Assembly (NCBI GenBank): GCA_022226955.1
Contig: CP092079.1
Location: forward strand, 2,410,396 to 2,474,395
Length of the DNA stretch: 64,000 nucleotides
From: Nitrospira sp.
GTDB lineage: Bacteria; Nitrospirota; Nitrospiria; Nitrospirales; Nitrospiraceae
Direction: 5' to 3'
This document shows positions 49,617-64,000 of the stretch, one piece after another (position 1 is the stretch's first letter; each line of letters opens with the position of its first letter). The notes below the pieces were generated by a model. The model did not search any database and was not told where the DNA came from. It saw only the letters and a program-made list of their open reading frames with translations. A program made the translations under genes and the position numbers.

Positions 49617-50147
49617 TTACATCTTCGCGGGGCTCGCCAGCAACTTCTCGACCTCTGCCGTAATCGCATCGGCCGCCGCGAGATCCATGTTCCCAACCCG
49701 CTGCCAGCGGATGACCCCGGCCTGGTCGATTACATAGACATTGGGAATGAACTTGCCGCCGCCATACAGCTTGTCCGTCACTTTCCCCGGATCGAGGAGA
49801 TAGGGATAGGTCACTTTGACAGAAAAGGCCGACAGGAACTCCCCGACACTTTTTTTCGTGTCTCCCGACGAATTCACGCCGACCACCGCCACATCTTTGC
49901 CTTTAGTCATCTCGGAAACCTTTTGCAGCGTCTCGCCCTGCATCATGCAGGGATCGCAAATATGAAACAACCCAAGGACGATGACTTTCCCTTTATAGGC
50001 GTCTAACGATACCGTTTCACCGGTAATGGCCGTCAGCGTGAACGACGGCGCTTTCTCGCCGACTTTGAAAAATCCAGCCGCCAGCGCCAGGTGAGCCGCG
50101 AAGACCGGAACCAGTAGCGCGCCGAGCACCCACACAAATCGTTTCAT
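49617..50147 (-). CDS. TlpA-type thioredoxin-fold protein, exported
   Basis: 176 aa from ATG 50147 (AAGGAGGCTTAT before). Signal peptide about 1-23, then a peroxiredoxin/TlpA fold with the redox pair CDPC (FHICDPCMMQGE). Probably a periplasmic disulfide reductase or AhpC-like protein. First gene of the operon leading to the methyltransferase. Confidence 0.85.
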   Translation of the reverse strand: MKRFVWVLGALLVPVFAAHLALAAGFFKVGEKAPSFTLTAITGETVSLDAYKGKVIVLGLFHICDPCMMQGETLQKVSEMTKGKDVAVVGVNSSGDTKKSVGEFLSAFSVKVTYPYLLDPGKVTDKLYGGGKFIPNVYVIDQAGVIRWQRVGNMDLAAADAITAEVEKLLASPAKM

Positions 50148-50285
50148 ATAAGCCTCCTTCGCCATCAATCGACTACCCGAATGACTGACGAAAGCCATCC
50201 TACCATGCAGAATTTTTCAGGGGCAACGGCACGCCATAAATCCGATGTCCTTGTGACAAGCCCGCACGGCGCGCCGCGGTTCGAT

Positions 50286-51542
50286 TCATCGATGAAACAG
50301 ATGGCGGATCGAAGCTGGAGGAGCGAGCCACCGTGAGAGCGCCTGCACAGGACTCACCACGCGCGCGAGCCAGTACAGCGCCCGGCTCCCACGGAACCAC
50401 GCTGGGGACGCATGAATGACGGGGTCATGACTGCGGCACAACGCCATCCCGTATCGCCACCGCGCACGCCAATCATCCTGAAGCGTACACAACAACGCTC
50501 CGACTTCATGATCGTCGAGCCCCTCCCGCTGCTGCAAGAGCAAACTTTTCGGCATGCGAGGGGCCATGTCCATGACATCGGAATCAGCCTCAATCAGGCT
50601 CAAGACCTGCGGAGGGATAGGCGTTTCCATGACTCGATGAGACAGCGCCAAACCGAGCAACAGGATCCGATAGCATTTCCATTCCACGGCAGTCGCAATC
50701 ACTCGCTTCCAATTCAGCCGTCCGGCGTGGATAAGTCCGGCCACTTCCGTCATGAGGCTGAGCTGCTTCCATGCCCGATGCGCCCCATACACGCATAGCA
50801 CGAGTATCGCCTCCTCCGGGGCCATTCCCCTGATCCTCCGGCCATCCAGCGAGACCGGCCTGATATGGCTCCATACCTCCGGTCGCTCGATCGGAAAAGT
50901 CATACTCGCATGGCTCATCGCCCACAGCAGCTCGATCCGGCGCGACGTGTTGGCATGAACGTAGACGAGCGACCGCTCAGAGACATCGGTATCGCCTGAG
51001 GCCTGTCCCTTCCCTCCTCTCGCCACATAGCCCTGAGAAACCAACACTTGCTGGCCCGCGACAAGTTGGTTCCTGCGCACCAGCACAACCGGATCGGTCG
51101 GAGCGCAGAGCGTGAGATCGCCATAGATCATAGCGGCTAGAACGACGCCTCTGACGGGAAGGACTGAGATTCCGGCCTCATCAAAGAGTCGAGACAGTCG
51201 AAGCAGATCCTCCGCTCCCGCTCGATTCACGACGGCCGCCGCCTCTGCTCGCCGACAAAGCACATCGAGATCCGCCGGAGGAGCAAGGTCCGCGCACAAT
51301 CCGGTCAGCGTCCTAGCGAGCAAGGCTTCGACGCCCTGAGCGCTGGCCAATTCCAGCAACAACGGCCAATTCAAACCGGCCTGCGCACTCTCAAGAATCC
51401 GGCGGCGGATAAACTCAGGCACCGTCGCTCTCGCGCACCAGATAAGAAACTGGGCTTCCCGGAAACGCACCGGGTTCACCCATCCATCAGACGCACCGGG
51501 AGATGCGGCTCCATCGACCGGATATCGCGACGAGAATCCCAC
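50286..51542 (-). CDS. NTP_transf_5 nucleotidyltransferase-like protein, catalytic motif degraded
   Basis: 418 aa from GTG 51542 (GGGAGG eight bases upstream). Homologous along its length to the nucleotidyltransferase at 58917-60140. The DLDLLIP motif there is TDPVVLV here (Asp150 remains, the second Asp is Val) and the KG motif is RG (131-132). It is thus probably a pseudoenzyme or partner subunit. Last gene of the RiPP cluster, 3 nt after the hydroxylase stop. In lasso clusters such proteins add nucleotides or modify the peptide tail. Confidence 0.75.
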   Translation of the reverse strand: MGFSSRYPVDGAASPGASDGWVNPVRFREAQFLIWCARATVPEFIRRRILESAQAGLNWPLLLELASAQGVEALLARTLTGLCADLAPPADLDVLCRRAEAAAVVNRAGAEDLLRLSRLFDEAGISVLPVRGVVLAAMIYGDLTLCAPTDPVVLVRRNQLVAGQQVLVSQGYVARGGKGQASGDTDVSERSLVYVHANTSRRIELLWAMSHASMTFPIERPEVWSHIRPVSLDGRRIRGMAPEEAILVLCVYGAHRAWKQLSLMTEVAGLIHAGRLNWKRVIATAVEWKCYRILLLGLALSHRVMETPIPPQVLSLIEADSDVMDMAPRMPKSLLLQQREGLDDHEVGALLCTLQDDWRARWRYGMALCRSHDPVIHASPAWFRGSRALYWLARVVSPVQALSRWLAPPASIRHLFHR

Positions 51543-51544
51543 CG

Positions 51545-52585
51545 CTACATCCTCCCCTCAAGCAACTGAGTCAGCGCACGAACAGATTTAGCCACAGGAC
51601 TCACGTACAGACTCCGAACCGTCTCAAATTCCCTGGGCGCGGCATCGAGCAATCCGACTTGCAGAACCTCCGGATGCTCGGGACGATAGTGCGAGCCGGA
51701 CAGTCCGTCCCATATGGACAGCTTGCGCCCGAAACTCTTATTCCAATGGCGTGGATCGACGCTGTGGCTGTGATGGATCTGATGATGCGCCGGACTGATG
51801 AACAGCCAATTGAACACCGGGCCATACGAGAGCCAGATGTGCGAGTGACGCAAATGCATGCCCAGCAGCGCGATCGTAAACCCGATGATACTCACACCGA
51901 AAATCATCTCGACCTGAAGCTCACGACCAAGAATGTTTTCATAAAAGACCGCAGAGAACCCGATGGCCGGAACCTGTAACAGGGCAAAACCGATGGTCTC
52001 AACGGGATGGACTCGATAGGCTGCCGCAGGAGTCAGCACCTCGACCGAATGATGCACCCGATGAAAGGCCCACAGCACTGGCACCGTGTGGAATAACGTG
52101 TGCGCCCAATAATTGATCAAATCGTGCAGCAGGAGAAAACCGATGGCTGCCATGACAATCGCCGTCAGAGAAAGAGCACGGGGCGGCTCCCATCCCAACT
52201 GTCCAACCAATAACCACGACATCCCTTTTGCGCCCAGCACTCCGAGCCCTGTCATGATGGGAACATAGAAAAGAAATGTCAACACCATATCGATGGCCGC
52301 GAACCGAAAATCCAGCCTGGTCGACCAATGGCGATACAAGCGCGCGGGAAAGGCAAACTCTTGAAAGGACTCGCCCTCCAAGCGTCCCGCCCGCTTGGCC
52401 ATCACATACATCGCCCAGGCACACGCCAAGCTGGAAAGAAGATACGGCCAGGCCAACCCATTCGAGAGGTTGACGAAAACGCGAGGAATTTGCCCGATGG
52501 TCGTCGTGAACTGGTCCCAGGAAGAGACGGCGGACAGGGCGTATTCAGCCACGCGCTCTAGAAACCAGCGTGCTGCCTCAATCAT
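51545..52585 (-). CDS. Membrane fatty-acid-hydroxylase/sterol-desaturase family protein 1
   Basis: 346 aa, several membrane helices. Eight-His di-iron motifs: HDLINYWAHTLFH, HRVHH and HHQIHHS, with a further His in HLRHSH. The family uses O2 to hydroxylate or desaturate lipids. It is a paralogue of the next entry (both begin with an RWFLERVAEY motif). Its place inside a RiPP cluster makes peptide or lipid hydroxylation plausible, but the substrate is unknown. Confidence 0.85.
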   Translation of the reverse strand: MIEAARWFLERVAEYALSAVSSWDQFTTTIGQIPRVFVNLSNGLAWPYLLSSLACAWAMYVMAKRAGRLEGESFQEFAFPARLYRHWSTRLDFRFAAIDMVLTFLFYVPIMTGLGVLGAKGMSWLLVGQLGWEPPRALSLTAIVMAAIGFLLLHDLINYWAHTLFHTVPVLWAFHRVHHSVEVLTPAAAYRVHPVETIGFALLQVPAIGFSAVFYENILGRELQVEMIFGVSIIGFTIALLGMHLRHSHIWLSYGPVFNWLFISPAHHQIHHSHSVDPRHWNKSFGRKLSIWDGLSGSHYRPEHPEVLQVGLLDAAPREFETVRSLYVSPVAKSVRALTQLLEGRM

Positions 52586-52666
52586 CTGGCACTTCTATTC
52601 TGCGGTTACGCCGTATGAACAACTCCTTCTCCTGTCGCGCCATACGCCTTCACCTCTTTTTATTGG

Positions 52667-53740
52667 TCACAGTCCATCGGAACGCACCGGATTCTGAGGG
52701 CGATTGAATAGGCCTGAGACAAGGCTTCGGCGAAGGAGCCCTCCTACACGCTTAAACGGGCCGACATACAGCTTCCCAACGGTCGAGAACTCGTCCTTGC
52801 TCTCGCCGACAAGTCCGAATTGAAGGCGCTCATGGCAATCCGGCACACAAAGCGTCCCAAACATCCAATCCCACAACGAAAACTTCACGCCGAAGTTCTT
52901 GTCGTGATGGCATGGATCGATACTGTGATGGGCTTGATGCACGATCGGAGTCACGAGAATACGATCCAGCAGAGGGCCATAGGAAATCGGAAGGTGCGAA
53001 TGCTGCAAGTGATGCCCTGAAAGTCCATGCAGAAACCCGATAAGGCTGACACCGAAGATCGTCGTGGCAGCTAAGTCTTGCGTCGATATATGTTGGTAAA
53101 AGACAACGGCAAATCCAATGACCGGCGCACGCAAAATCGCCGTCACAAAAAACTCCACGGGGTGCGCACGGAACCCTGAAATGGGCGTCAATACCTCAGC
53201 CGAATGATGCACCTGATGAAACGTCCACAGAAACGGAACTTTATGAAGCAATACATGACCTACGTAATTGATGAAATCGTACAACAGGTAAAATCCGAGC
53301 ATCGCGGCAAAGAGAACAGGCACAGGTAACGTGGTCGGAGAGATCCAGCCCAGATAGCCGGTTAACACTATCTTGCCCATCTTCTCCGCAAGAAGGGCGA
53401 AGCCGACCAACATGGGCACAAAGAACAATGCATTGAGCACGACACTCACCGCATAAAATCGGTAGTCCACCCAGGCAGAGGAGTGACCGTACACAAACCG
53501 AGGAAACAGAAAGGCTCTAAAGGACGACACCGACAGCGCCTCCCCCTTCCTCGACAGGCTATACGCCACACCGGCAATCGTCACACTGGCAAGCAGATAC
53601 GGCCAGGCCAATCCGCTATTGAGGCGCGTGAATGTGCCGCCGATCTCTCCGATGGCTGCCGTAAAACGGTCCCAGGAAGAGACCGTGGACAGGGAGTATT
53701 CGGCCACACGCTCTAAGAACCATCGTACTGCGTCAATCAC
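52667..53740 (-). CDS. Membrane fatty-acid-hydroxylase/sterol-desaturase family protein 2
   Basis: 357 aa. Start at GTG 53740, which aligns with the first residues of its paralogue (V/M-I-D/E-A); a TTG at 53752 is the alternative. His motifs: NYVGHVLLH, HQVHH, HQAHH. Begins 86 nt after the first precursor peptide, with a strong hairpin between. Likely works with the paralogue. Confidence 0.85.
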   Translation of the reverse strand: MIDAVRWFLERVAEYSLSTVSSWDRFTAAIGEIGGTFTRLNSGLAWPYLLASVTIAGVAYSLSRKGEALSVSSFRAFLFPRFVYGHSSAWVDYRFYAVSVVLNALFFVPMLVGFALLAEKMGKIVLTGYLGWISPTTLPVPVLFAAMLGFYLLYDFINYVGHVLLHKVPFLWTFHQVHHSAEVLTPISGFRAHPVEFFVTAILRAPVIGFAVVFYQHISTQDLAATTIFGVSLIGFLHGLSGHHLQHSHLPISYGPLLDRILVTPIVHQAHHSIDPCHHDKNFGVKFSLWDWMFGTLCVPDCHERLQFGLVGESKDEFSTVGKLYVGPFKRVGGLLRRSLVSGLFNRPQNPVRSDGL

Positions 53741-53769
53741 CAGGCCTCTCAATTACGCCCTATACGATT

Positions 53770-53803
53770 CGTGGGGCAGCCGGCCGAAGCCGGCCGCCCC
53801 ACG
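53770..53803 (-). terminator. Strong hairpin after precursor peptide A1
   Basis: Stem CGTGGGGC-GGCCGGC / GCCGGC-t-GCCCCACG with a TTCG tetraloop, 23 nt after the precursor stop and 30 nt before the hydroxylase start. No T-run follows, so it may act as an attenuator or 3' end protector: more precursor than enzyme mRNA is the usual effect in RiPP operons. Confidence 0.6.
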
Positions 53804-53825
53804 AACGCGGTTACGGCAGCATTAG

Positions 53826-53969
53826 CTAATAGGACTCAATCGCACCGGGTTTCTCACCCACACTCTTGTCGCTAGCCTTCACCCCGGACGTTCCGCCGGT
53901 GATGTCGCGCAACATGTCGTGCGCCACCAAGACCGGCTCGGTGTACGACTCTTTCTGCTGTTGCTCCAT
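53826..53969 (-). CDS. RiPP precursor peptide A1, lasso-type leader
   Basis: 47 aa; GAAAGGGGGTGAAGAAGC precedes ATG. Leader: MEQQQKESYTEPVLVAHDML with Y9-x-x-P12-x-L14, then RDIT (Thr24) and Gly25. Predicted core starts at Gly26 (GTSGVKASD...), with Asp34 as core residue 9, the right place for a Gly1-Asp9 macrolactam. Thr at -2 fits the lasso rule. Two further Glu and a C-terminal tail rich in Gly/Pro/Ser end in SY. It directly follows the PqqD1 gene. Other enzymes may use it differently. Confidence 0.75.
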   Translation of the reverse strand: MEQQQKESYTEPVLVAHDMLRDITGGTSGVKASDKSVGEKPGAIESY

Positions 53970-53975
53970 GCTTCT

Positions 53976-54434
53976 TCACCCCCTTTCTATTGTTAAAAGT
54001 CCCTCGTGACTCAGATGGGTCACCAGAGCAAAGAGATCATCGGCAATCCGCTCCGGCGGAGCATCGAACCGTCCACACAATGCGGTGTGAATGGCCTGAA
54101 GGGACGCTGTTCCCGTGCAGGCGTCCCAGATCGCGCTGCCAACCCGATTCAAGGTGTAGTAACGGCCCGTACTCAAATCGAGTAACACGGTCTCGCCATC
54201 CAACGTCGTTCCCTGAACATCCGGATTAGGGCGCGGCACCGCCGCCATGAGGTCCTGGCGGGTATCTTGCCGGCCTCGTTCAATCTGTTGCTGCTCTCCC
54301 TCCGACAGAACGGCACGAGCTGCTTCGGCCAGTTCTGCGGTCGTTGCATGCCCCCCTAGCGATACCTGTCCAGGCTCGGACGCCACGGTTAGATCCGGCC
54401 TCAAATCGGCGGTGATAAACGGCTGTCTCCCCAT
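53976..54434 (-). CDS. PqqD/RRE-type leader-binding protein 1 with N-terminal extension
   Basis: 152 aa from ATG 54434 (AAGGAG upstream). Residues about 70-150 are a PqqD domain (GTTLDGETVLLDLSTGRYYTLNRVGSAIWDACTG). About 65 N-terminal residues are a poorly conserved extension. Such B1-type proteins bind the YxxP leader. It ends 7 nt before precursor A1. Nearly the same 14-residue block occurs in the second copy at 61.6-61.9 kb. Confidence 0.85.
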   Translation of the reverse strand: MGRQPFITADLRPDLTVASEPGQVSLGGHATTAELAEAARAVLSEGEQQQIERGRQDTRQDLMAAVPRPNPDVQGTTLDGETVLLDLSTGRYYTLNRVGSAIWDACTGTASLQAIHTALCGRFDAPPERIADDLFALVTHLSHEGLLTIERG

Positions 54435-54479
54435 TAGCGGCACTCCTTTCGTCGTTGCGATTCGACCGATTCACATTCG

Positions 54480-55379
54480 TTACGCCCGTCCGGCACAGAG
54501 CAGATCGGCTAAGGCATCGCCAATTCGCTGACCGGTATAGTTCTCAAAAAAGGTAAACCCCGGGCTGGTATTGACCTCGAAACAATAATAGGCGCCAGCC
54601 GGCGTCCGGCGAAAATCGATTCCGCTCAGGCTCAATCCCAAGCCTCTGGCGAGACCGAGACAGCGGGCCTGAATACTCTGCTCCAATTCGACGGCTCGCA
54701 TGGTGCGCTGCTTGTCCTCGCGACCGGCATACCGGTAATCCGTCCCGTCCGACAGCACCTCGGTCGCGAACAAACGGTCTCCCACCGTATGCACGCGCAG
54801 ATCCGCGCCTGGAATCGTTTCTTGCAACTGCACGGGGCAGGAGCGGATGTGTTCCAGGCGGGGAAAATCAGCCGGCGTCAACGGCCTCACAATCGACCGT
54901 TCCGCGCTGATGGATTTGTAAATGACGCGCCCCTGGCACTCGTCATAGAACCGGCGCGCTTCTTCCGGCACCATCGTCACCAGTGTCTTCGGAACCAGGA
55001 AGCCGGCTTGCTCAATCAGCTGTTGCTGATAGGGCTTCGACATGTTCGTATGCCCGGCCTGGCGCCGGTTCACAACCAGGACTGAAAGACTCTCGGCAAA
55101 CTCCCAGAGTGTCGTCGCGAGGATTCTGGCCCTCGGAGACGAGGCCGACCGGGCGCCGACTCCACGCAAATACACCGCATCAATACTGGCGGCATCGATA
55201 ACCTGCTGGCCGAGACGGATGTGCTCTACAATCCTACGGCCATCGCTCGACCAGGACACATCCCAATCCTGCCCTTCCGAATCCGGATGGACGAGCATGA
55301 GATCAGCGTTCCGGACCGCAAGCCGGGCGCACACATTCGCAAGCACTGAGTCGGCCATCGGTCCCATGAGAAGAATCAT
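54480..55379 (-). CDS. ATP-grasp ligase (graspetide/RimK-like), intact
   Basis: 299 aa from ATG 55379. ATP-grasp core: phosphate Lys in VIYKSISAERS, a LQETIPGADLRVHTVGDRLFATEV strand set, and the metal site FEVNTSPG (Glu268, Asn270). Family members activate Asp/Glu side chains as acyl-phosphates and join them to Ser/Thr/Lys or N-termini. It overlaps the upstream ATP-grasp gene by 77 nt. Best candidate for the ring-forming enzyme of this cluster. Confidence 0.82.
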   Translation of the reverse strand: MILLMGPMADSVLANVCARLAVRNADLMLVHPDSEGQDWDVSWSSDGRRIVEHIRLGQQVIDAASIDAVYLRGVGARSASSPRARILATTLWEFAESLSVLVVNRRQAGHTNMSKPYQQQLIEQAGFLVPKTLVTMVPEEARRFYDECQGRVIYKSISAERSIVRPLTPADFPRLEHIRSCPVQLQETIPGADLRVHTVGDRLFATEVLSDGTDYRYAGREDKQRTMRAVELEQSIQARCLGLARGLGLSLSGIDFRRTPAGAYYCFEVNTSPGFTFFENYTGQRIGDALADLLCAGRA

Positions 55380-56328
55380 CCTGCGACAGGCTCCTCTGTT
55401 CAGAAAGGTATTCGAGCAACTGCTCCGCAATCTGCTGCTGCGCGTCCTGCGGACAACGCCAGAAGTTCGGCGTGCCGCTGATATCGAGACACCAGAGGTC
55501 TCCGCTGGGGTCGATCACAATCTGACACTCAGCAAAGGTGAGCCCTAACGCGCGCGCGAGATCACAACAACGCGCGGTGTGAGCGGACAGCACCTCCACC
55601 GGCTGCGACACCGCCTCGCCGGAACGAAGGACCGTCGCCACCGCTCGCTCGCCCGCCACATAGACCGTCGCCTGCTGCCCAGGCGGAACGGTTTGAAGCG
55701 ACACCGCCTGTTGTTCCATGACTTGGCGGATCTGCTCGGCCCCATCCTGCGCTTGCAGGAACCGCCCCGGCTCACTCGATCCAAGAGGCTTAAGATAGGC
55801 CGACCCGCCCCAAGCCGTGAATTGCTGCAAGGCATCGGCTTGGCTGGACGTGTAACGGACTGCGGGAAGAAGAAATCCATGCGCTGGCGCGAGCGGGGCC
55901 AACAGCGGGCTTCCCGAAAGAAGTGTGGGCCTGCCGCCGGGAACCGGCCGATTGATCACTGGACAGGGCATCGCATTCAGGAAGGCCAGCCAGGCCGCGG
56001 TGGCCTCCTTCGTCACATAGTCGGCGTCGGCATCCGACAGCCCCTCAAGATTCACACGTAATGGGAACGGAAGCCGAGTGAAAATTCCCGTGAGGGTTTC
56101 AAGAGTAATTCTCTGCCCATTGATCTCCAGAAATCCTTGGATGACCGACTCTTTGGCCGAAACCGGCCAATTAAGCAGAACCTTATCCAGCAGCTGCAGG
56201 GGTTCAACCCAGCAGACATCGCTCCCTGTTCGTTGAGCTTCTCGATGGATACGCGCTGCCCAGGGGTCGGTTGAATCGGCAAGAATGAGAATCACTGGAG
56301 ATGACTCCTCTCCGGCGCCTGAATTCAA
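55303..56328 (-). CDS. ATP-grasp-like protein with degraded metal motif
   Basis: 341 aa, paralogous in layout to the next gene (SAYLKPLGSSEPGRF, VPPGQQATVYVAGERAVATV, GLTFAECQIVIDPSGDLWCLDISGTP). The E-x-N metal pair is D-I-S (Asp282-Ser284), so catalysis is doubtful; it may bind substrate or regulate the intact partner. The C-terminal ~25 residues overlap the partner gene. Confidence 0.7.
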   Translation of the reverse strand: MNSGAGEESSPVILILADSTDPWAARIHREAQRTGSDVCWVEPLQLLDKVLLNWPVSAKESVIQGFLEINGQRITLETLTGIFTRLPFPLRVNLEGLSDADADYVTKEATAAWLAFLNAMPCPVINRPVPGGRPTLLSGSPLLAPLAPAHGFLLPAVRYTSSQADALQQFTAWGGSAYLKPLGSSEPGRFLQAQDGAEQIRQVMEQQAVSLQTVPPGQQATVYVAGERAVATVLRSGEAVSQPVEVLSAHTARCCDLARALGLTFAECQIVIDPSGDLWCLDISGTPNFWRCPQDAQQQIAEQLLEYLSEQRSLSQDDSSHGTDGRLSACECVRPACGPER

Positions 56329-56420
56329 TGGAGTAGCTGCGTGAAAAATCTCAAGGCGCGCCAGGCCTTCGAGAAGAATAGCCCCAGCCTGGCACCCTGC
56401 CTAGACCACTAGAAGCGGGG

Positions 56421-56452
56421 CTTCCCCTACATAAGTCTGTACGTAGGGGGAG
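56421..56452 (-). terminator. Hairpin between the ABC exporter and ATP-grasp genes
   Basis: Ten-pair stem (one G-T) CTTCCCCTAC / GTAGGGGGAG with a 12-nt loop, in the 180-bp gap 56329-56508. No T-run. Internal attenuator of the cluster. Confidence 0.45.
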
Positions 56453-56508
56453 CTATTCTAAGAGATGCGGCAAGAAGATGAAAGAGCGCACGATCTGAAA
56501 CAGGAGGA

Positions 56509-58320
56509 TTACTGGTAGTGCTGCGCTTGGGTGAGGAATAGTGAGGCATAGAGGCCTTGGCGCCCCATCAAGTCATCGTGCGAACCCTGTTCCACGATCT
56601 GACCGCGATCCACGACGAAAATTCTGTCGGCCATCTTAACCGTGGAGAGTCGATGGCTGATTAAGATGGCTGTCCGTCCTTGCGCCAGTTCATGGAACCG
56701 TTCAAATAACTCCGCTTCTGCCTTGGCATCCATGGCGCTGGTCGGTTCGTCGAGAATCAGGACCTGGGAATTGCGGAGAATCGCCCGGGCCAGGGCCACC
56801 TTCTGCCATTCTCCGATACTCAGCTCATGCCCTCCATCGAATAGCTTCCCCAGCAAAGACTCGTAGCCCTTCGGCAACCGCTCAATGGTCTCATGAACAC
56901 CGGCTTGCTTGGCCGCCTGCACGACCGTCGGCAATGCGATATCGGATGCCTGCACCCCCAATGCGATGTTGTCTTTGGCGGAAAACTGAAACTTCACAAA
57001 GTCCTGAAAAATTCCGCTGACCGCGCCACGGACGTCGGCGATGGCATAGTCGCGAAGATCCGCCCCATCGATCATAATGCGCCCGCTCGTGGGATCATAC
57101 AGACGGCACAAGAGCTTCACTAAGGTCGTTTTTCCAGCGCCGTTGGCGCCGACAAACGCCACATGCTCGCCAGGCCTGATCGTAAACGTGAAGTCGCGAA
57201 CCGCCACCCGTTCTTCATGGGGATATTGAAACGAGACCCGCTCGAACCTAATCCCCTGCCCGAGCGAGGCGGGAAACCGCCGCGGCTGAACCGCTTCAGG
57301 CAGCTTTGAACGAATCGCGAGAAATTCATTCAGCGTCGTCAGAAAGAGATTGCTCTCATACAAATTCGACACACTCCAACCCAACCCTTCGAGAAACCCC
57401 GAGGCCCGCTGGATCGCCTGAAAGAACATGACGAGATCACCGACCGTCAACAGTCCATGAAACGTTCTTACTGCCACAAAGCTGTAGACTCCGAAGACGC
57501 CCGCCACTCCCACAATCTGCGCCGCCAGCCCGAACAGCGCCCACCGGCGCTCCAGCGCAATCCGCTCCTGGCGCAATATCGTCCGCGTCTCGCGGAACCA
57601 GTCTCGCAACCGAGGGCCGAGATCGAACAAGCGAACTTCTTTGGCGGCGGTGGCCTGCGTCAACAGCATATTGACGTACCAGGCTTTCCGTTCCAGCGGC
57701 GTCCGCTCGCGCTCCCAGGCAAACAACCGGTTGGATTGCTGCAACCGGACCAAGAAATACGGAATCGCCGTCAGCGCAAGGACCGGAATGACCGCCCAAT
57801 GCAGCCACCAGAGAATGCCCGCCATCGCCAGCAGCGAGATGCCATCCTGGAAACATTGCAAGAGCGCGTTGAGAATTGCGGTGGGACGATAGGGCGCTTC
57901 CTGCTGCGCCCGGTGCAGCGTATCTTGATACCGCGCATTCTCGTAATACTCGAGATCGACCTCGACAGACTTCGCCTGCAGCAGCGCATGCATATGATCG
58001 GTGACGACCTGGGCGTGAATCCTGGAAATCAAAGAAGCGGCAACCGTGAGCAGGGCACTGATCACCGCGGCCCCTGCCAGTCCCGCGAGAATCGTTGCAA
58101 TGGGAGTTAACGAGGCATCCGGCGAAGGAACCTTAATTTCCTCCGTCACCGCATCGATCAATAACTTCGTCAGGTACAGCACGGCCAGCGGCAACAACCC
58201 CTGGACCACCCGTACAGCAATGCTGCCGACCGCGAGGCTCGGACTGCTCTGCCAGACAAAGGAGAGGGCATACCGAAGCGTCTGAAGAAACGGCCGTATG
58301 CGAAGCAGCAAACTATTCAT
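56509..58320 (-). CDS. ABC exporter (fused TMD-NBD), RiPP type
   Basis: 603 aa. Six membrane helices (about 20-320) then an ATPase domain: Walker A GANGAGKTT, signature LSIGEWQK, Walker B VLILDEPTSAMD, H-loop ILISHR. No C39 peptidase domain at the N-terminus, so leader removal must be done by another protein, in agreement with the B2-like gene just upstream. Likely exports the mature peptide (role of lasso D). Confidence 0.9.
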   Translation of the reverse strand: MNSLLLRIRPFLQTLRYALSFVWQSSPSLAVGSIAVRVVQGLLPLAVLYLTKLLIDAVTEEIKVPSPDASLTPIATILAGLAGAAVISALLTVAASLISRIHAQVVTDHMHALLQAKSVEVDLEYYENARYQDTLHRAQQEAPYRPTAILNALLQCFQDGISLLAMAGILWWLHWAVIPVLALTAIPYFLVRLQQSNRLFAWERERTPLERKAWYVNMLLTQATAAKEVRLFDLGPRLRDWFRETRTILRQERIALERRWALFGLAAQIVGVAGVFGVYSFVAVRTFHGLLTVGDLVMFFQAIQRASGFLEGLGWSVSNLYESNLFLTTLNEFLAIRSKLPEAVQPRRFPASLGQGIRFERVSFQYPHEERVAVRDFTFTIRPGEHVAFVGANGAGKTTLVKLLCRLYDPTSGRIMIDGADLRDYAIADVRGAVSGIFQDFVKFQFSAKDNIALGVQASDIALPTVVQAAKQAGVHETIERLPKGYESLLGKLFDGGHELSIGEWQKVALARAILRNSQVLILDEPTSAMDAKAEAELFERFHELAQGRTAILISHRLSTVKMADRIFVVDRGQIVEQGSHDDLMGRQGLYASLFLTQAQHYQ

Positions 58321-58347
58321 GGAGATTCAAATGCGTCTGTTTTTGCC

Positions 58348-58821
58348 TCAGATAACCGCCGTCGTCCCCTTCCGTGGGCGCACAGGCGGCACGAGATCCC
58401 GGTTGACTAGGGGACCAGGAGGGAATGAGTAGGTCACGGTGAACTGCTGCCAATACCGGCCAGGCTCGTGAAACGGCTGATGATCCAGCATCAACCAAGC
58501 ATGGCCATCGAGACCGGTCCCATCCTTTCTCACTCCGCAATGAAACGACACCGGATAGCCCGATCGTGTGGCGAACCAATACAAGGCCAACGATCGGGGA
58601 AAACAATTCCCTTTTGCATTGTAGGGGAAGAGCTGGAGCCATCGATCTAGATAGTAGACCAGGTCTTCAAATCGCGCCGGATCGGGATTCCCGGAAAGCA
58701 CGGCTGGCTGCAGTCGCTGCAACACCCTCGGAAGACTTTCGCCGCGTAATCGAAAACGAATCCACGACACCACCGCAGCCACCTGCAACAGCAGCCAATA
58801 CTTTCTCGCTATTCGCTTCAT
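58348..58821 (-). CDS. B2-type transglutaminase-fold leader peptidase
   Basis: 157 aa from ATG 58821; upstream open frame is not coding. Cys-His-acid layout of the lasso B2/McjB family (PF13471): GNCFPRSLALYWF (Cys73), LDGHAWLML (His107), and an acidic residue at Asp113 or Glu119. The family removes the leader after RRE binding. 28 nt before the ABC exporter. N-terminal hydrophobic stretch (WLLLQVAAVVSW) may touch the membrane. Confidence 0.88.
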   Translation of the reverse strand: MKRIARKYWLLLQVAAVVSWIRFRLRGESLPRVLQRLQPAVLSGNPDPARFEDLVYYLDRWLQLFPYNAKGNCFPRSLALYWFATRSGYPVSFHCGVRKDGTGLDGHAWLMLDHQPFHEPGRYWQQFTVTYSFPPGPLVNRDLVPPVRPRKGTTAVI

Positions 58822-58916
58822 CGTAGGCTCAGTCGGCCCAATCGCAGGACGCGCTCCCGCAATCGCGTGCCTTTCTAGACGACAACCCCTCACACACCCG
58901 AGAGAGCCCGTGGCCA

Positions 58917-60140
58917 TCAGCGGCCATGATCGACCCATCGATTGATTGTGCCGCGAATGGGAGAGGGGACCAGATTCCTCACCGCGCGCTGGCAGGGCCG
59001 GACAAGATGCGACAATTGCGCCAGCCGCTTCCCACGGGAAAACCAGCTTGGCGGAGCCTCCACGATTGACGAGCCGTCCCGGCACAGTGCCAGGCCGAAT
59101 CGCCATTGCTCCCACCAAGTGTCTTTCAACGAAAAATAGACGGCCACTGCCTGCTCCTCGCTGACACCGTTCCTGGGATTCGCCAAAAGACTCGCCGGCA
59201 TACGCTCGGACAACATCTGAATATCGGAATCGGCCGAATAGCGGTCGTGGACCGATTCTGGGATCGGCGCATCTAGCACCCGATGGGCCAGGGCCAATCC
59301 GATGTGCATAAGCCGCAGGCAACGCCAGGCCTTCGCCTGTGAAAAAACCCTGGCCCAATCGAGGTTCGGATGCGAACGGAGCAATTCAGCGACATCGCAC
59401 ACCCACTTGAGCTGTTCCCAAGCATGCTTCGATCCATGCACACAGAGAAGAATCAGAAGTTCCTCAGGCGCCAGCGTGTGAACCGTCGACTTTCCCAGCA
59501 CCATCGGCGTCCGATGTGCCCAGAACTCCGGACGATCCAGTTGAAAGGCAAAATGCTGATGCGCCATCACCCACTGAAGATCGACTCTGAATAGGCTGCG
59601 CGTCTTGATAAACACATTGTAGGGGCCCTCTTCGTGCTCCGCTTCCGCTGGGTCGGTCGAAGGGTCTTTTCGCTCATACCCCTGAGCAAGCAATACCGCT
59701 TGCGCGGCCCCAACCGCAGATTCTGGAATCAAGAGATCGAGATCGCTGAAATCACGAAGCGTCAGATCGCCATAGGCGGACAAGGCTAAGGTCGCGCCTT
59801 TAATGGGCACAACCGGGACATTCCGCGCGGCAAATGCATCGCACAAGTTTCCCAGTTCCTGCGCAAGCGATCGGCTCAGCAAGGCACAGGCTTGTGTTTT
59901 TTGGCGCAGCTTCGCCAGCACATCGCCCGGCACGAGCGCGGGACAGATAGTCGAAATATTCCGATAGAAAAGCGGAAGCACGCCGTGAGACGTGGCGAGA
60001 TCCAGCAGCTGTCCCCAATTCAGCGGCTCCTGGATCCGCGCGCAGATCCGCGCGCGCAGTTCCTCGGTCAGGTGCGTGCGCGCGCAGCACACCAGCAACT
60101 CCGCTTCAGGCAACCACGGGAATTGCCGTGCGACCTTCAT
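58917..60140 (-). CDS. NTP_transf_5 nucleotidyltransferase, intact motif
   Basis: 407 aa from ATG 60140, overlapping the kinase stop by 4 nt (GATGA). Nucleotidyltransferase fold: KGATLALSAYGD and DFSDLDLLIP (Asp133, Asp135). Homologues accompany lasso peptide clusters together with an HprK-like kinase and probably act on the phosphorylated peptide tail. Paralogue at 50286 has lost the second Asp. Confidence 0.88.
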   Translation of the reverse strand: MKVARQFPWLPEAELLVCCARTHLTEELRARICARIQEPLNWGQLLDLATSHGVLPLFYRNISTICPALVPGDVLAKLRQKTQACALLSRSLAQELGNLCDAFAARNVPVVPIKGATLALSAYGDLTLRDFSDLDLLIPESAVGAAQAVLLAQGYERKDPSTDPAEAEHEEGPYNVFIKTRSLFRVDLQWVMAHQHFAFQLDRPEFWAHRTPMVLGKSTVHTLAPEELLILLCVHGSKHAWEQLKWVCDVAELLRSHPNLDWARVFSQAKAWRCLRLMHIGLALAHRVLDAPIPESVHDRYSADSDIQMLSERMPASLLANPRNGVSEEQAVAVYFSLKDTWWEQWRFGLALCRDGSSIVEAPPSWFSRGKRLAQLSHLVRPCQRAVRNLVPSPIRGTINRWVDHGR

Positions 60141-61156
60141 CGCCCCTTCTCCAGCAGCGGGGTGATCAGTTTCGGCAAATCCAAGATATCGCGGCCGAAA
60201 TGCAGTCGGTAACAATCGACTTGCTGTACAAGTTTCGCCAGCACTTTGAACTCCCGCCGAGCGACCTCTTGATCGTAGACCAGCAAGGCTTGCGGCAAGA
60301 GCGCCTCCAGCGCCCGGCTCTTGGGAAGCAGTTCAAGATGGCTCTTCGGTGCATCGACGACATGGGGAAACAACACAAGCGCGGGCTGGCAGCGCTCACC
60401 GACCGCCGTCCGATAGAGGTCTTCGGCATAAAAAAATCGTTTGGGCACACCTGGATGGAGCACCTGCTCCGATGCCGACTGCAGTTCTGGGAAAAACTGC
60501 ACCGTGGCATCGGTGACATTGATCTTGATCGGAAACGGCAGCACTTCCACCTGCGCTCCGGAATCCTGCAAGAGTGGATGATCGTCCGATAGATAGCGAT
60601 AGCCGGACCGAAGTAAGGAGATAAACGAGGTGGTTTTCCCGCGGCCGCTGTTGCCGGGAATCAAGATGGCGCGACCGCTGTACTCCAGCGCCGTCGCATG
60701 AATCGTATAGAGCCCGCGGCGCCGCAATAATTCAATCAACGCCAGGTGAAATAGATATTCGATCAGGTTGGAGGACAGCCGCTCGGGATTTATCACATAC
60801 CCCTCGGCTTGGCCCTGCGCGCCGTCGATCACTAACACCCCGATCTCAGGAAACTCTGCGATCAGAAGCCCCTGATCCGCACTCACCTTGTAGGCCAGTC
60901 CGGTCGCTCGCCGATCCCCGACCGCCTCACCCGTACCGGCCGCCAACTGCCGCGCCGAAGCGGAAATTGTAAAGGGAACCTCGGCCAGATTCTTCACTTG
61001 TCGAAAACGAAGAGTCAGCACCGCATCGGCATCGAACGCATCGTTCAGGCGAAAATGCCGCAACAACTCGTTCACCGGTTGCGCCAGAATCGGCACATCC
61101 GTCTCATATCTGACCGCCGTGCCATAGAGTGAATAGCGATATTCAACCATGCTCAT
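60137..61156 (-). CDS. HprK-like kinase of the RiPP cluster
   Basis: 339 aa from ATG 61156 (GAGGG about 9 nt upstream; earlier Met codons sit on the ribosome site). C-terminal P-loop domain: GNSGRGKTT (168-176), YLSDDHPLL, as in HPr kinase-like enzymes that phosphorylate the C-terminal Ser of some lasso peptides (paeninodin type). N-terminal ~140 residues are a variable beta-rich domain. P1's Ser in the ESY end is a possible target. Confidence 0.85.
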   Translation of the reverse strand: MSMVEYRYSLYGTAVRYETDVPILAQPVNELLRHFRLNDAFDADAVLTLRFRQVKNLAEVPFTISASARQLAAGTGEAVGDRRATGLAYKVSADQGLLIAEFPEIGVLVIDGAQGQAEGYVINPERLSSNLIEYLFHLALIELLRRRGLYTIHATALEYSGRAILIPGNSGRGKTTSFISLLRSGYRYLSDDHPLLQDSGAQVEVLPFPIKINVTDATVQFFPELQSASEQVLHPGVPKRFFYAEDLYRTAVGERCQPALVLFPHVVDAPKSHLELLPKSRALEALLPQALLVYDQEVARREFKVLAKLVQQVDCYRLHFGRDILDLPKLITPLLEKGR

Positions 61157-61255
61157 TTCTACCATACCCTCAGGATTCAACCGACGTATTTCGCGCTACC
61201 ACGCCGTTGCAAGGAGATGGGCCGGCCCGCCATTTAGCGAGCCGACCCCTTCACA

Positions 61256-61387
61256 TTAATCGTTATTCCACCAGCGGCGCGGCCTCTTGTCATCACAATT
61301 GTAGCCTGACTGACCCGCCGTAATGTCGCGCAACAGTTCGTGTTTCTCTACCGCTGGCTGGACATACTGTTCTTTCTTCTGTTCCAT
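61256..61387 (-). CDS. RiPP precursor peptide A2, lasso-type leader
   Basis: 43 aa, GAGGAGGTAATACAAA before ATG. Leader MEQKKEQYVQPAVEKHELL with Y8-x-x-P11, then RDITA. Core after Ala24: GQSGYNCDDKRPRRWWNND (19 residues), with Asp at core positions 8 and 9. Gly1 + Asp8/9 and bulky Trp-Trp after the ring is the textbook lasso layout (plug residues). One Cys at 7. Confidence 0.8.
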   Translation of the reverse strand: MEQKKEQYVQPAVEKHELLRDITAGQSGYNCDDKRPRRWWNND

Positions 61388-61453
61388 TTTGTATTACCTC
61401 CTCAATTTATATAGACGGCACAATCTCCGTGAGCCCGCTACCCCTCAGGGACG

Positions 61454-61576
61454 CTACTTCTCCTGGCACTGAAGTGTTCTGCAAGGCTGCTGCCCAGAGT
61501 TTCCCGCCGTAATGTCGCGCAACAACTCATGCTTCATCACCATCGGCTGGGCACACTGCTTTTTCTGTTGTTCCAT
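61454..61576 (-). CDS. RiPP precursor peptide A3 (no acidic residue at 7-9)
   Basis: 40 aa, AAAGGAGGTGAAGAAAA before ATG. Leader nearly the same as A2 and A4, but Tyr8 is Cys (KQCAQPM). Core: GNSGQQPCRTLQCQEK; Cys at 8 and 13, no Asp/Glu at 7-9, Glu only at 15. Thus it cannot close a normal 7-9 residue lasso ring. Follows PqqD2 by 7 nt. Confidence 0.72.
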   Translation of the reverse strand: MEQQKKQCAQPMVMKHELLRDITAGNSGQQPCRTLQCQEK

Positions 61577-61582
61577 TTTTCT

Positions 61583-61936
61583 TCACCTCCTTTCCTGTTC
61601 AAGTAGCCCCTCCTGAACCAATTCATTGGCCAGGTTGACAAGGTCGTCGAGGGCTCGCTCGGATGCGACCTCAAACTGGTCGCCGATAACCGCATGAATA
61701 TCGCCCATCGTGTTCCGCCCCGTGCAATGCTCCCAAATCACACTCCCCAGCCGATTCAAGGTGTAGTACCGGCCGCTGCTCAGGTCCAACAGCACTGTCT
61801 CTCCATCCATCGTCGTACCTTGCACGTCGGGACTTGGTCGCAAAACGATGCGATCAAGTTGCGTCCGATCGATTGAACCGTGGATCGAAGATTCTGCCGC
61901 ACCGGACAATATCGTCGTAGCTGAGATCTCTACCAT
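61583..61936 (-). CDS. PqqD/RRE-type leader-binding protein 2
   Basis: 117 aa. PqqD domain at about 35-115 (GTTMDGETVLLDLSSGRYYTLNRLGSVIWEHC), nearly the same as in the 53976 copy; the N-terminal extension is only ~30 residues. Followed by A3 and A2. Binds the YxxP leader (inference). Confidence 0.85.
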   Translation of the reverse strand: MVEISATTILSGAAESSIHGSIDRTQLDRIVLRPSPDVQGTTMDGETVLLDLSSGRYYTLNRLGSVIWEHCTGRNTMGDIHAVIGDQFEVASERALDDLVNLANELVQEGLLEQERR

Positions 61937-62381
61937 CTGCCATCCTCCTTGCCGGTCGCTGCCCGGCTTTTCGACTGCGCCTAGGAGCCGCTATACCAGC
62001 ATCGACTACCTGCATCGACTTCCGCTCGCCATCGCGACAGACTGTCGTCTTCTTCAAGAAAGGTAGCCTGACATTGGGATCTTGCCTATACCCCAAAGGC
62101 CTGATGAAGTACCCCACCTTGGTATATGGCCAGGGGTGGGACTGCGTGCAACAAGGCCTTGAGGGCAAGACTTTCAGGCTTGTCGAGCCAGGCGAGCAAG
62201 CGCCTAGCAAGCTTTGTGGCTCTCAGAGAAACTCTGGAGTGAAACCTGAGACAGAGACCATGACAGGCAAATCAGATGAGAAGATACGAGGCGAGAGTAT
62301 TCCCGGCACAACAACAGAAGCTAGGCACCAACAAGATAAGCTGGCCGATCCTCGAGAACCGGCCAGCCCATTAGTTCGTTA
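61937..62381. other. Gap between PqqD2 and precursor A4, no gene seen
   Basis: 445 bp. Short frames on both strands lack ribosome sites and similarity. Contains the hairpin at 62341-62366. It likely carries the promoter of the A3-A2-kinase block. Confidence 0.5.
62341..62366 (-). terminator. Hairpin after precursor A4
   Basis: Stem CTGGCCG / CGGCCAG (7 bp) with a 12-nt loop, 16 nt past the A4 stop, followed on the minus strand by a moderately T-rich stretch. May end the short A4 transcript. Confidence 0.5.
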
Positions 62382-62495
62382 CTACTTATCGCAATTCCTA
62401 TCACAACCAGGGATAGATTGCTTCGCCGTGATGTCGCGCAACAACTCGTGCTTCACCATCACCGGCTGAACATACTGCTCTTTCTGTTGTTCCAT
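62382..62495 (-). CDS. RiPP precursor peptide A4 (Lys at core position 1)
   Basis: 37 aa, AAAGGAGGTGAAGAAGA before ATG, near-identical to the A3 upstream. Leader MEQQKEQYVQPVMVKHELL + RDITA. Core: KQSIPGCDRNCDK; Asp at 8 and 12, Cys at 7 and 11. Position 1 is Lys, where A1-A3 have Gly. First gene of the cluster in transcription order. Confidence 0.72.
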   Translation of the reverse strand: MEQQKEQYVQPVMVKHELLRDITAKQSIPGCDRNCDK

Positions 62496-63150: not shown

Positions 63151-64000
63151 CTACATCGACTTCTTAACCGAGGCCGATGGCTCGAACAGCCCGAGCTGCA
63201 TTTCTTCTGCGCGGGTAAACGCGATGGGATACTTTTCGGTGAAGCAAGCATTGCAATATTGGGACGGGACTCCCGGAGCTGCTTGCAGCATGCCGTCAAG
63301 GCTCAGGTAGGCCAGCGAGTCGGCGGTAATGTATTTACGGATCTCCTCAGCCGAATGATTCGACGCGATCAACTCTTTCTTCGTCGGCGTATCGACGCCA
63401 TAGAAACAAGGCGAGACGATCGGCGGAGAACTGATCCGCATATGAACTTCCTTGGCGCCGGCATTCCTCAGCATCTTGACGATCTTCCGGCTCGTCGTCC
63501 CTCGAACGAGCGAATCGTCGACGACCACCACCCGCTTGCCCGTTAACACCTCAGGCACCGCGTTTAGCTTCACCTTCACGCCGAAGTGTCGAATGGACTG
63601 TTCCGGTTCGATGAAGGTCCGGCCGACATAGTGATTGCGAATCAATCCCGTCTCGAAGGGAATGCCCCCGCCTTCGCTATACCCCAATGCGGCGGGCACG
63701 CCGGAGTCTGGCACAGGAATCACGATGTCCGCCTCCACCCAGGATTCTTTGGCTAACCGGCGTCCCAAGGCTTTGCGCGTTGAATAGACCGCGTTGGCGC
63801 CGAAGATTCGGCTGTCCGGCCTGGCGAAGTAGACATACTCGAATACGCACATAGCTGGATCGACTTTAGGAAAGGGCCGATGGCTGTCGATCCCCTGATC
63901 GCTCAAGACAACCAACTCGCCGGGCTCGATCTCGCGCACATACTCAGCATCCAAGAGATCGAACGCGCAGGTTTCCGACGCCACCACCCAGCTCCCACGC
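63151..64000 (-). CDS. purF: Amidophosphoribosyltransferase, C-terminal part (cut by window edge)
   Basis: Open to the right edge; the visible ~282 residues are the phosphoribosyltransferase half. PRPP motif [21 protein letters not shown], upstream [18 protein letters not shown] and [14 protein letters not shown]. Cys residues at [10 protein letters not shown] suggest the Fe-S type of Bacillus PurF. First step of purine synthesis. The N-terminal glutaminase is outside the window. Confidence 0.95.

Follow-up and report, generated by a model that had tools for sequence, protein, structure and literature searches.

The operon studied here, a gene cluster for ribosomally synthesized and post-translationally modified peptides (RiPPs), occupies positions 50286-62495 of the window, a 64,000-nucleotide stretch of a complete 3.6-Mb Nitrospira genome, and shares parts with several described systems. 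Lasso precursors are known to be modified by kinases and by a nucleotidyltransferase (PMC9266682), and the paeninodin and pseudomycoidin lasso clusters resemble the operon in their PqqD/B1 and B2 proteins, kinase, nucleotidyltransferase and penultimate-Thr leader (PMC9266682, PMC10368454). However, these clusters have a C cyclase and a phosphorylated C-terminal Ser, whereas the operon has no C gene and its conserved Ser lies near the core N-terminus. CorB, a TIGR04187 protein, links Lys to Asp by isopeptide bonds within KxxxD units, with hydroxylation as a later step, and corallotide (graspetide group 15) shares with the second part of the operon, module 2, a TIGR04187 ATP-grasp enzyme, repeated Lys-x-x-x-Asp units and an oxygenase in the cluster (PMC13097080). 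Unlike module 2, corallotide has a large precursor without a lasso-type leader and a 2-oxoglutarate oxygenase rather than an FA_hydroxylase, and PqqD, B2, HprK and a degenerate ATP-grasp protein are not described for it. Microviridins likewise use two paralogous ATP-grasp enzymes, MdnB and MdnC, and an enzyme-activating leader motif, PFFARFL, comparable with the motif Phhx(1,2)h described for graspetide leaders (PMC8939145); in contrast to the operon, the motif sits on the precursor, both ligases act and there is no B1/B2 protease. The rosaritide synthetase requires a partner, MirC, whose N-domain is weakly similar to a RiPP recognition element (RRE), but MirC is SurA-like, neither a PqqD nor a degenerate ATP-grasp protein, and a tag in trans is not described. 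The synthetases of graspetide groups 33 and 39 adjoin a transglutaminase-fold protein (PMC13097080), and these groups may overlap with the present system.

The operon consists of two related RiPP modules in tandem. Module 1 comprises PqqD1, precursors A1-A3, an HprK-related kinase (HprK), the nucleotidyltransferase NTF1, the B2 leader peptidase and an ATP-binding cassette (ABC) exporter, and module 2 comprises the ATP-grasp proteins GRSP2 and GRSP1, PqqD2, A4-type precursors, hydroxylases and NTF2. We propose, with a probability of about two in three, that these are two RiPP systems with a common B2 and exporter, in which module 1 probably phosphorylates small peptides and module 2 probably makes graspetide-type Lys-Asp/Glu isopeptide rings with lasso-type leader recognition and cleavage. 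What is observed are the genes present, their conservation and modular occurrence, the patterns in the cores, where the tag occurs and which catalytic residues are lost; all chemistry, the order of steps and the member of the ATP-grasp pair that binds the tag are inferred. Listing of open reading frames (ORFs) and searches of the window proteins against Pfam and NCBIfam profiles recover every gene named in an earlier, sequence-only reading, all on the minus strand: four precursors, two PqqD proteins, B2, an ABC protein, an HprK-like kinase, two nucleotidyltransferases, two ATP-grasp proteins and two di-iron hydroxylases (Table 1). The profiles that it had named, PF13471, PF05402 and PF14907, match B2, both PqqD proteins and both nucleotidyltransferases, respectively. 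Its description of the leaders as lasso-type also stands, but YxxP and LLRDIT do not occur in all four, A2 having CAQP and A4 having MLRDIT; similarly, both ATP-grasp proteins and both nucleotidyltransferases are present, but one of each (GRSP2 and NTF2) is without catalytic residues.

The window is read as carrying both modules in tandem because each module also occurs without the other. HprK orthologues are present in Nitrospira, with matches in 41 of 79 genomes (E <= 0.001; the weaker ones are probably other kinases), and loci were fetched around 28 of these 41. Loci L106-L127 in our numbering carry PqqD, precursor, HprK, nucleotidyltransferase, B2 and ABC genes (fewer at contig ends) without the ATP-grasp pair. 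Likewise, the one-contig genome G059, which holds module 1, gives no GRSP1 match. Specifically, module 1 of L136 lies between purF and the redoxin gene without an ATP-grasp gene, in a locus that is complete between both flanks; its cores GQSSYNCDEKTVRLN and GQSSYNCDEKERRLN (GQSSYNCDEK) are close to A3, and its ABC gene is apparently broken. At the same purF-redoxin site, L206-L208, which belong to other genera, have B2, GRSP2, GRSP1, PqqD2, an A4-type precursor, HprK, a hydroxylase and a nucleotidyltransferase, without module-1 PqqD, module-1 precursors or a second kinase copy. L215, L217 and L218 are more distant module-2 loci, and in L215 Pfam identifies a GMC oxidoreductase but no hydroxylase. 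Relatives keep the gene order that includes the ATP-grasp pair, on which the sequence-only reading depended, and the content of the purF-redoxin site varies among them from PqqD and HprK only (L172) up to both modules. An HprK scan of the genome collection returned almost only Nitrospira-type records.

The cores of the two modules differ in pattern. The precursors have ribosome-binding sites, and their leaders are conserved among the 81 distinct relatives collected (59 module-1 and 22 module-2 cores), so that chance ORFs are ruled out. Leaders end in ...KHELLRD[IV]TA in module 1 and ...VLxAHExLRD[IV]TG in module 2, and a Ser is found at +3 or +4 in all 59 module-1 cores. At least one K-x2/3-[DE] unit occurs in 21/22 module-2 cores vs 6/59 module-1 cores, and module-2 cores mostly contain two or three units in tandem. 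K-x2-[DE] is observed 40 times in cores against 7.7 in shuffled cores, a ratio that is not a probability since the cores are related. Module-2 cores found later fit the pattern, among them the more distant SKYREKYRDKVNDN, QKYREKERDKFSDKSGVEN, NKYREKFSDKVNDN and KYREKLLDKFSD; those of L206-L208, L215 and L217 have the same tandem K-x2/3-[DE] arrangement. The repeated Lys/Ser/Thr donors and Asp/Glu acceptors of graspetide cores are thus found in 21/22 module-2 cores and not in A1-A3. As a separate observation, module-1 cores in L107, L109-L111, L114, L118, L119, L122 and L125-L127, which have no ATP-grasp gene, are Gly/Asn-rich, many with NNGxGNGxxDGVPGxS-like stretches.

The sequence matches of GRSP1 are graspetide synthetases, namely PsnB (7drm, the closest in the PDB, E 2.7e-23), MdnC and MdnB. 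GRSP1 has the DFR and ExN motifs and retains the conserved residues of PsnB, and K155, R195, D214, D255, E268 and N270 are invariant across 16 aligned homologues. When GRSP2 is aligned to the same family, the catalytic E/D/N residues are replaced, and its AlphaFold2 model (mean predicted local distance difference test score 70.8) retrieves MdnC, AMdnB, PruB and PsnB (Foldseek E about 1e-14 to 1e-13), with uncertain relative domain placement because the template modelling score is low, about 0.33. Both proteins score below the TIGR04187 cut-off of 350 bits. We infer that GRSP1 is the active member of the pair and GRSP2 a non-catalytic partner. At the sequence level, the synthetase and cores of module 2 have the features of a graspetide system, and the likeliest substrates of the pair are A4-type cores, in which rings would run from Lys to Asp/Glu side chains.

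In the alignment, PqqD2 is longer than PqqD1 by about 70 N-terminal residues, part of them of low conservation; in the model, residues 1-31 are mostly predicted disordered and the RRE fold (66-150) is confident. This extension contains PFITADLRPD, of which PFITADL fits the graspetide leader motif, whereas the A4 leader is lasso-type with only a loose fit. The pattern FI..[DE][LE]RP gives 27 matches in 986,080 ORF residues and none in 4.6 million shuffled residues, and all 27 are PqqD2 or proteins encoded beside homologous ATP-grasp pairs. Because it is graspetide-leader-like and found on such proteins, the tag is probably a docking signal that has shifted from substrate to adaptor.

The HprK-related kinase has an intact P-loop (GNSGRGKTT) and SDD in the alignment, with a TIGR04352 match (E 6.8e-17) below the cut-off. 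Intact P-loop and conserved acceptor Ser, the sequence marks of an HprK-modified RiPP, are both found, and the kinase is predicted to be the Ser kinase of module 1. The kinase may or may not act on module-2 cores as well, one of which, VKYKEQCQKAADAACAD (L105), contains neither Ser nor Thr. The SDLD motif of NTF2 is altered in 6/6 sequences examined, and the place of the hydroxylases in the pathway is a guess by analogy. Elsewhere in Nitrospira, HprK-like, radical-SAM-like, PqqD, nucleotidyltransferase and B2-like genes adjoin large secreted-looking proteins (L128-L131).

In the proposed pathway, PqqD1 would bind A1-A3 at their YxxP leader, and phosphorylation by the HprK-like kinase would fall on the invariant Ser in position 3 of the core. 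The phosphate may be extended by NTF1, in the way suggested for PsmN of the pseudomycoidin cluster. B2 would then cleave after T-x and the ABC protein would export the product, no ring-closing enzyme being involved. In module 2, PqqD2 would bind the A4-type leader and dock GRSP1/GRSP2 via its N-terminal PFITADLRPD, thereby bridging leader and enzymes. The synthetase pair would activate Asp/Glu with ATP and join it to Lys side chains in the K-x2/3-[DE] units. Oxidation of the product may be the task of the FA_hydroxylases, and B2 would then take off the leader.

The sequence-only reading had instead envisaged a ring closed either by the ATP-grasp pair or by a cyclase encoded elsewhere in the genome. 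It was right that the window has no Asn-synthetase-like gene, since all nine PF00733 matches of the complete genome lie elsewhere. Six of them are full-length and could in principle supply a lasso cyclase acting in trans on the precursors; however, all six start with (M/V)CG, typical of glutamine-dependent synthetases, and their scores with the lasso-cyclase model NF033535, 146-214 bits, are far below its cut-off of 525; this model also gives sub-threshold matches in controls such as E. coli and B. subtilis. Lasso cyclases are not known to have this N-terminal Cys. Additionally, cluster-gene homologues are absent from the 20-kb surroundings retrieved for the nine matches, no Asn_synthase orthologue group common to all five cluster genomes was found (G032 being only 89% complete), and the only PF13471 B2 gene of the genome is that of the cluster. 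With no recognised lasso cyclase from the whole-genome search, a cyclase in trans is scarcely credible. Candidate cyclases at related loci were also rejected: the ASN matches in L160, L163, L165, L166, L171 and others are PurF, from the purine gene adjoining the locus, and that in L123, the sole Asn-synthetase match among L106-L127, lies about 4 kb away and has an MCG start. The cluster, which has B1 (PqqD), B2 and a penultimate-Thr leader, falls outside the lasso definition for want of a cyclase, yet it uses lasso-type leader handling. That handling, with Thr at -2 and the B1/B2 parts, together with G1 and D8/D9 in A3 and several A4-type cores, is what speaks for an ATP-grasp pair that acts in place of the cyclase on all four precursors and makes lasso-like rings by linking the N-terminus of the core to Asp/Glu 8 or 9. 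We consider this very improbable, because L136 has module 1 and A3-like cores but not the pair, A1 starts with Lys, A2 has no Asp/Glu at 7-9, and module-2 cores conserve the Lys-Asp/Glu spacing, not position 1. Asp/Glu is found at 7-9 in only 17/59 module-1 and 14/22 module-2 cores, and the 42/59 module-1 cores without it, that is, most of them, cannot form a lasso ring. The combination of lasso-type leader handling with graspetide-type ligases therefore survives from the earlier claim, but ring closure by the pair on all four precursors is not supported, A1-A3 belonging to a module that also exists without it.

Two further roles of the pair have to be weighed. GRSP1 also matches RimK models weakly, as expected if the pair ligated a free amino acid or extended a terminus without ring closure, but graspetide synthetases match better, GRSP1 by sequence and GRSP2 by fold, and the tandem K-x2/3-[DE] units point to cross-linking, which makes a RimK-like role unlikely. 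There is also a slim chance that the tag-bearing PqqD2 is itself the substrate, in line with most other loci, where the tag is on the same protein as a K/E/D-rich tail; however, the PqqD2 extension in the window has no Lys, nearly all orthologues have few or none, and it is the adjoining A4-type cores that carry Lys-Asp/Glu units. Several points weigh against the two-module proposal itself. Genes may have been missed at those module-1 loci that lie on short contigs, and several loci are from metagenome-assembled genomes. The shuffle test overstates significance because the core sequences are related. The module-2 core GASGVSGGQCQSTSALNCVL (L032) contains no Lys, Asp or Glu. In several A4-type cores G1 and D9 are present as well, which makes an N-terminal macrolactam possible for these. 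The tag pattern was derived from these same loci and its specificity is partly built in, the independent test being the diverged module-2 loci and a Megaera locus, both fetched later; moreover, the tag may not be the sole docking signal, since the A4 leader (PVLVA) also fits the loose motif Phhx(1,2)h.

Table 1. Features of the operon, which is flanked by a redoxin gene and purF (49617-50198 and 63151-63987).
Feature	Coordinates	Strand	Remarks
Precursor A1	62382..62495	-	Module 1; leader MEQQKEQYVQPVMVKHELLRDITA, core KQSIPGCDRNCDK; ribosome-binding site; orthologue in L104
PqqD1 (RRE/B1-like)	61583..61936	-	Module 1; PF05402 E 1.6e-15; no N-terminal tag
Precursor A2	61454..61576	-	Module 1; core GNSGQQPCRTLQCQEK
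Precursor A3	61256..61387	-	Module 1; core GQSGYNCDDKRPRRWWNND; similar cores in L136, a cluster without ATP-grasp
HprK-related kinase	60137..61180 (ORF coordinates; start codon may be further in)	-	Module 1; TIGR04352 and alignment
NTF1, NTP_transf_5 nucleotidyltransferase	58917..60140	-	PF14907 E 1.5e-64; SDLD motif intact
B2 leader peptidase (transglutaminase-like)	58348..58830	-	PF13471 and NF033537, above both cut-offs
ABC exporter	56509..58320	-	Conserved in both module types
GRSP2, degenerate ATP-grasp	55303..56328	-	Module 2; TIGR04187 E 7.8e-12 (below cut-off); graspetide-synthetase fold
GRSP1, intact ATP-grasp, graspetide-synthetase type	54480..55379	-	Module 2; TIGR04187 E 1.3e-32
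PqqD2 (RRE) with ~70-aa N-terminal extension	53976..54434	-	Module 2; PF05402 E 1.6e-17
PFITADLRPD tag in PqqD2 extension	54393..54422	-	Predicted docking signal for ATP-grasp pair; disordered in model
Precursor A4	53826..53969	-	Module 2; core GTSGVKASDKSVGEKPGAIESY with K-x2/3-[DE] units
FAH1, membrane di-iron FA_hydroxylase	52667..53752	-	Module 2; PF04116 E 2.1e-22; His motifs intact
21-aa ORF MARQEKELFIRRNRRIEVPDD	52578..52643	-	Good ribosome-binding site; second A4-type precursor at this place in relatives
FAH2, second FA_hydroxylase	51545..52585	-	Module 2; PF04116 E 9.7e-20
NTF2, degenerate nucleotidyltransferase	50286..51542	-	PF14907 E 3.7e-34; TDPV instead of SDLD

The 21-aa ORF may be a decayed precursor or a separate peptide; L104 also has an ORF similar to it.

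Tagged proteins are also found outside the two modules. In Nitrospirota loci L033-L039, L210, L211, L213, L214 and L216, homologous ATP-grasp pairs lie beside large tagged proteins (M6 peptidase, subtilase, tyrosinase, DUF6519, esterase-like and others) with K/E/D-rich C-terminal tails, the tag having the form [FY]I-x-x-[DE]-[LE]-RP, which suggests that these pairs may cross-link protein tails. A Candidatus Megaera plasmid (L224, 5696-9196) carries a K/D-rich small ORF and, adjoining it, a tagged ORF of 41 aa that immediately precedes an ATP-grasp gene; a 278-aa ORF and two genes for dioxygenases complete the set. This rickettsial endosymbiont may thus have a graspetide cluster of its own. The GRSP2 profile does not match the second ORF of this locus, so kinship with GRSP2 is unproven. 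Tentatively, the ATP-grasp pair might be viewed as a portable Lys-Asp/Glu cross-linker recruited by a short tag, in cis on large proteins beside a K/E/D-rich tail, and in trans via an RRE adaptor for many small peptides here. In the open-access subset of the literature, we found nothing on this gene combination, a graspetide-tyrosinase link or the tag.

Since a cyclase-less B1/B2/kinase cassette is common in Nitrospira, B1/B2 genes alone are no proof of lasso peptides. If the two-module proposal is true, the operon would join lasso leader handling, by RRE and B2, to graspetide chemistry, and B2 would be a candidate leader peptidase for graspetides, for many of which this enzyme is described as unknown (PMC8939145). 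Moreover, a docking signal could be separated from its substrate and reside on an adaptor instead, and the substrates of such ligases would extend beyond small peptides to protein tails.

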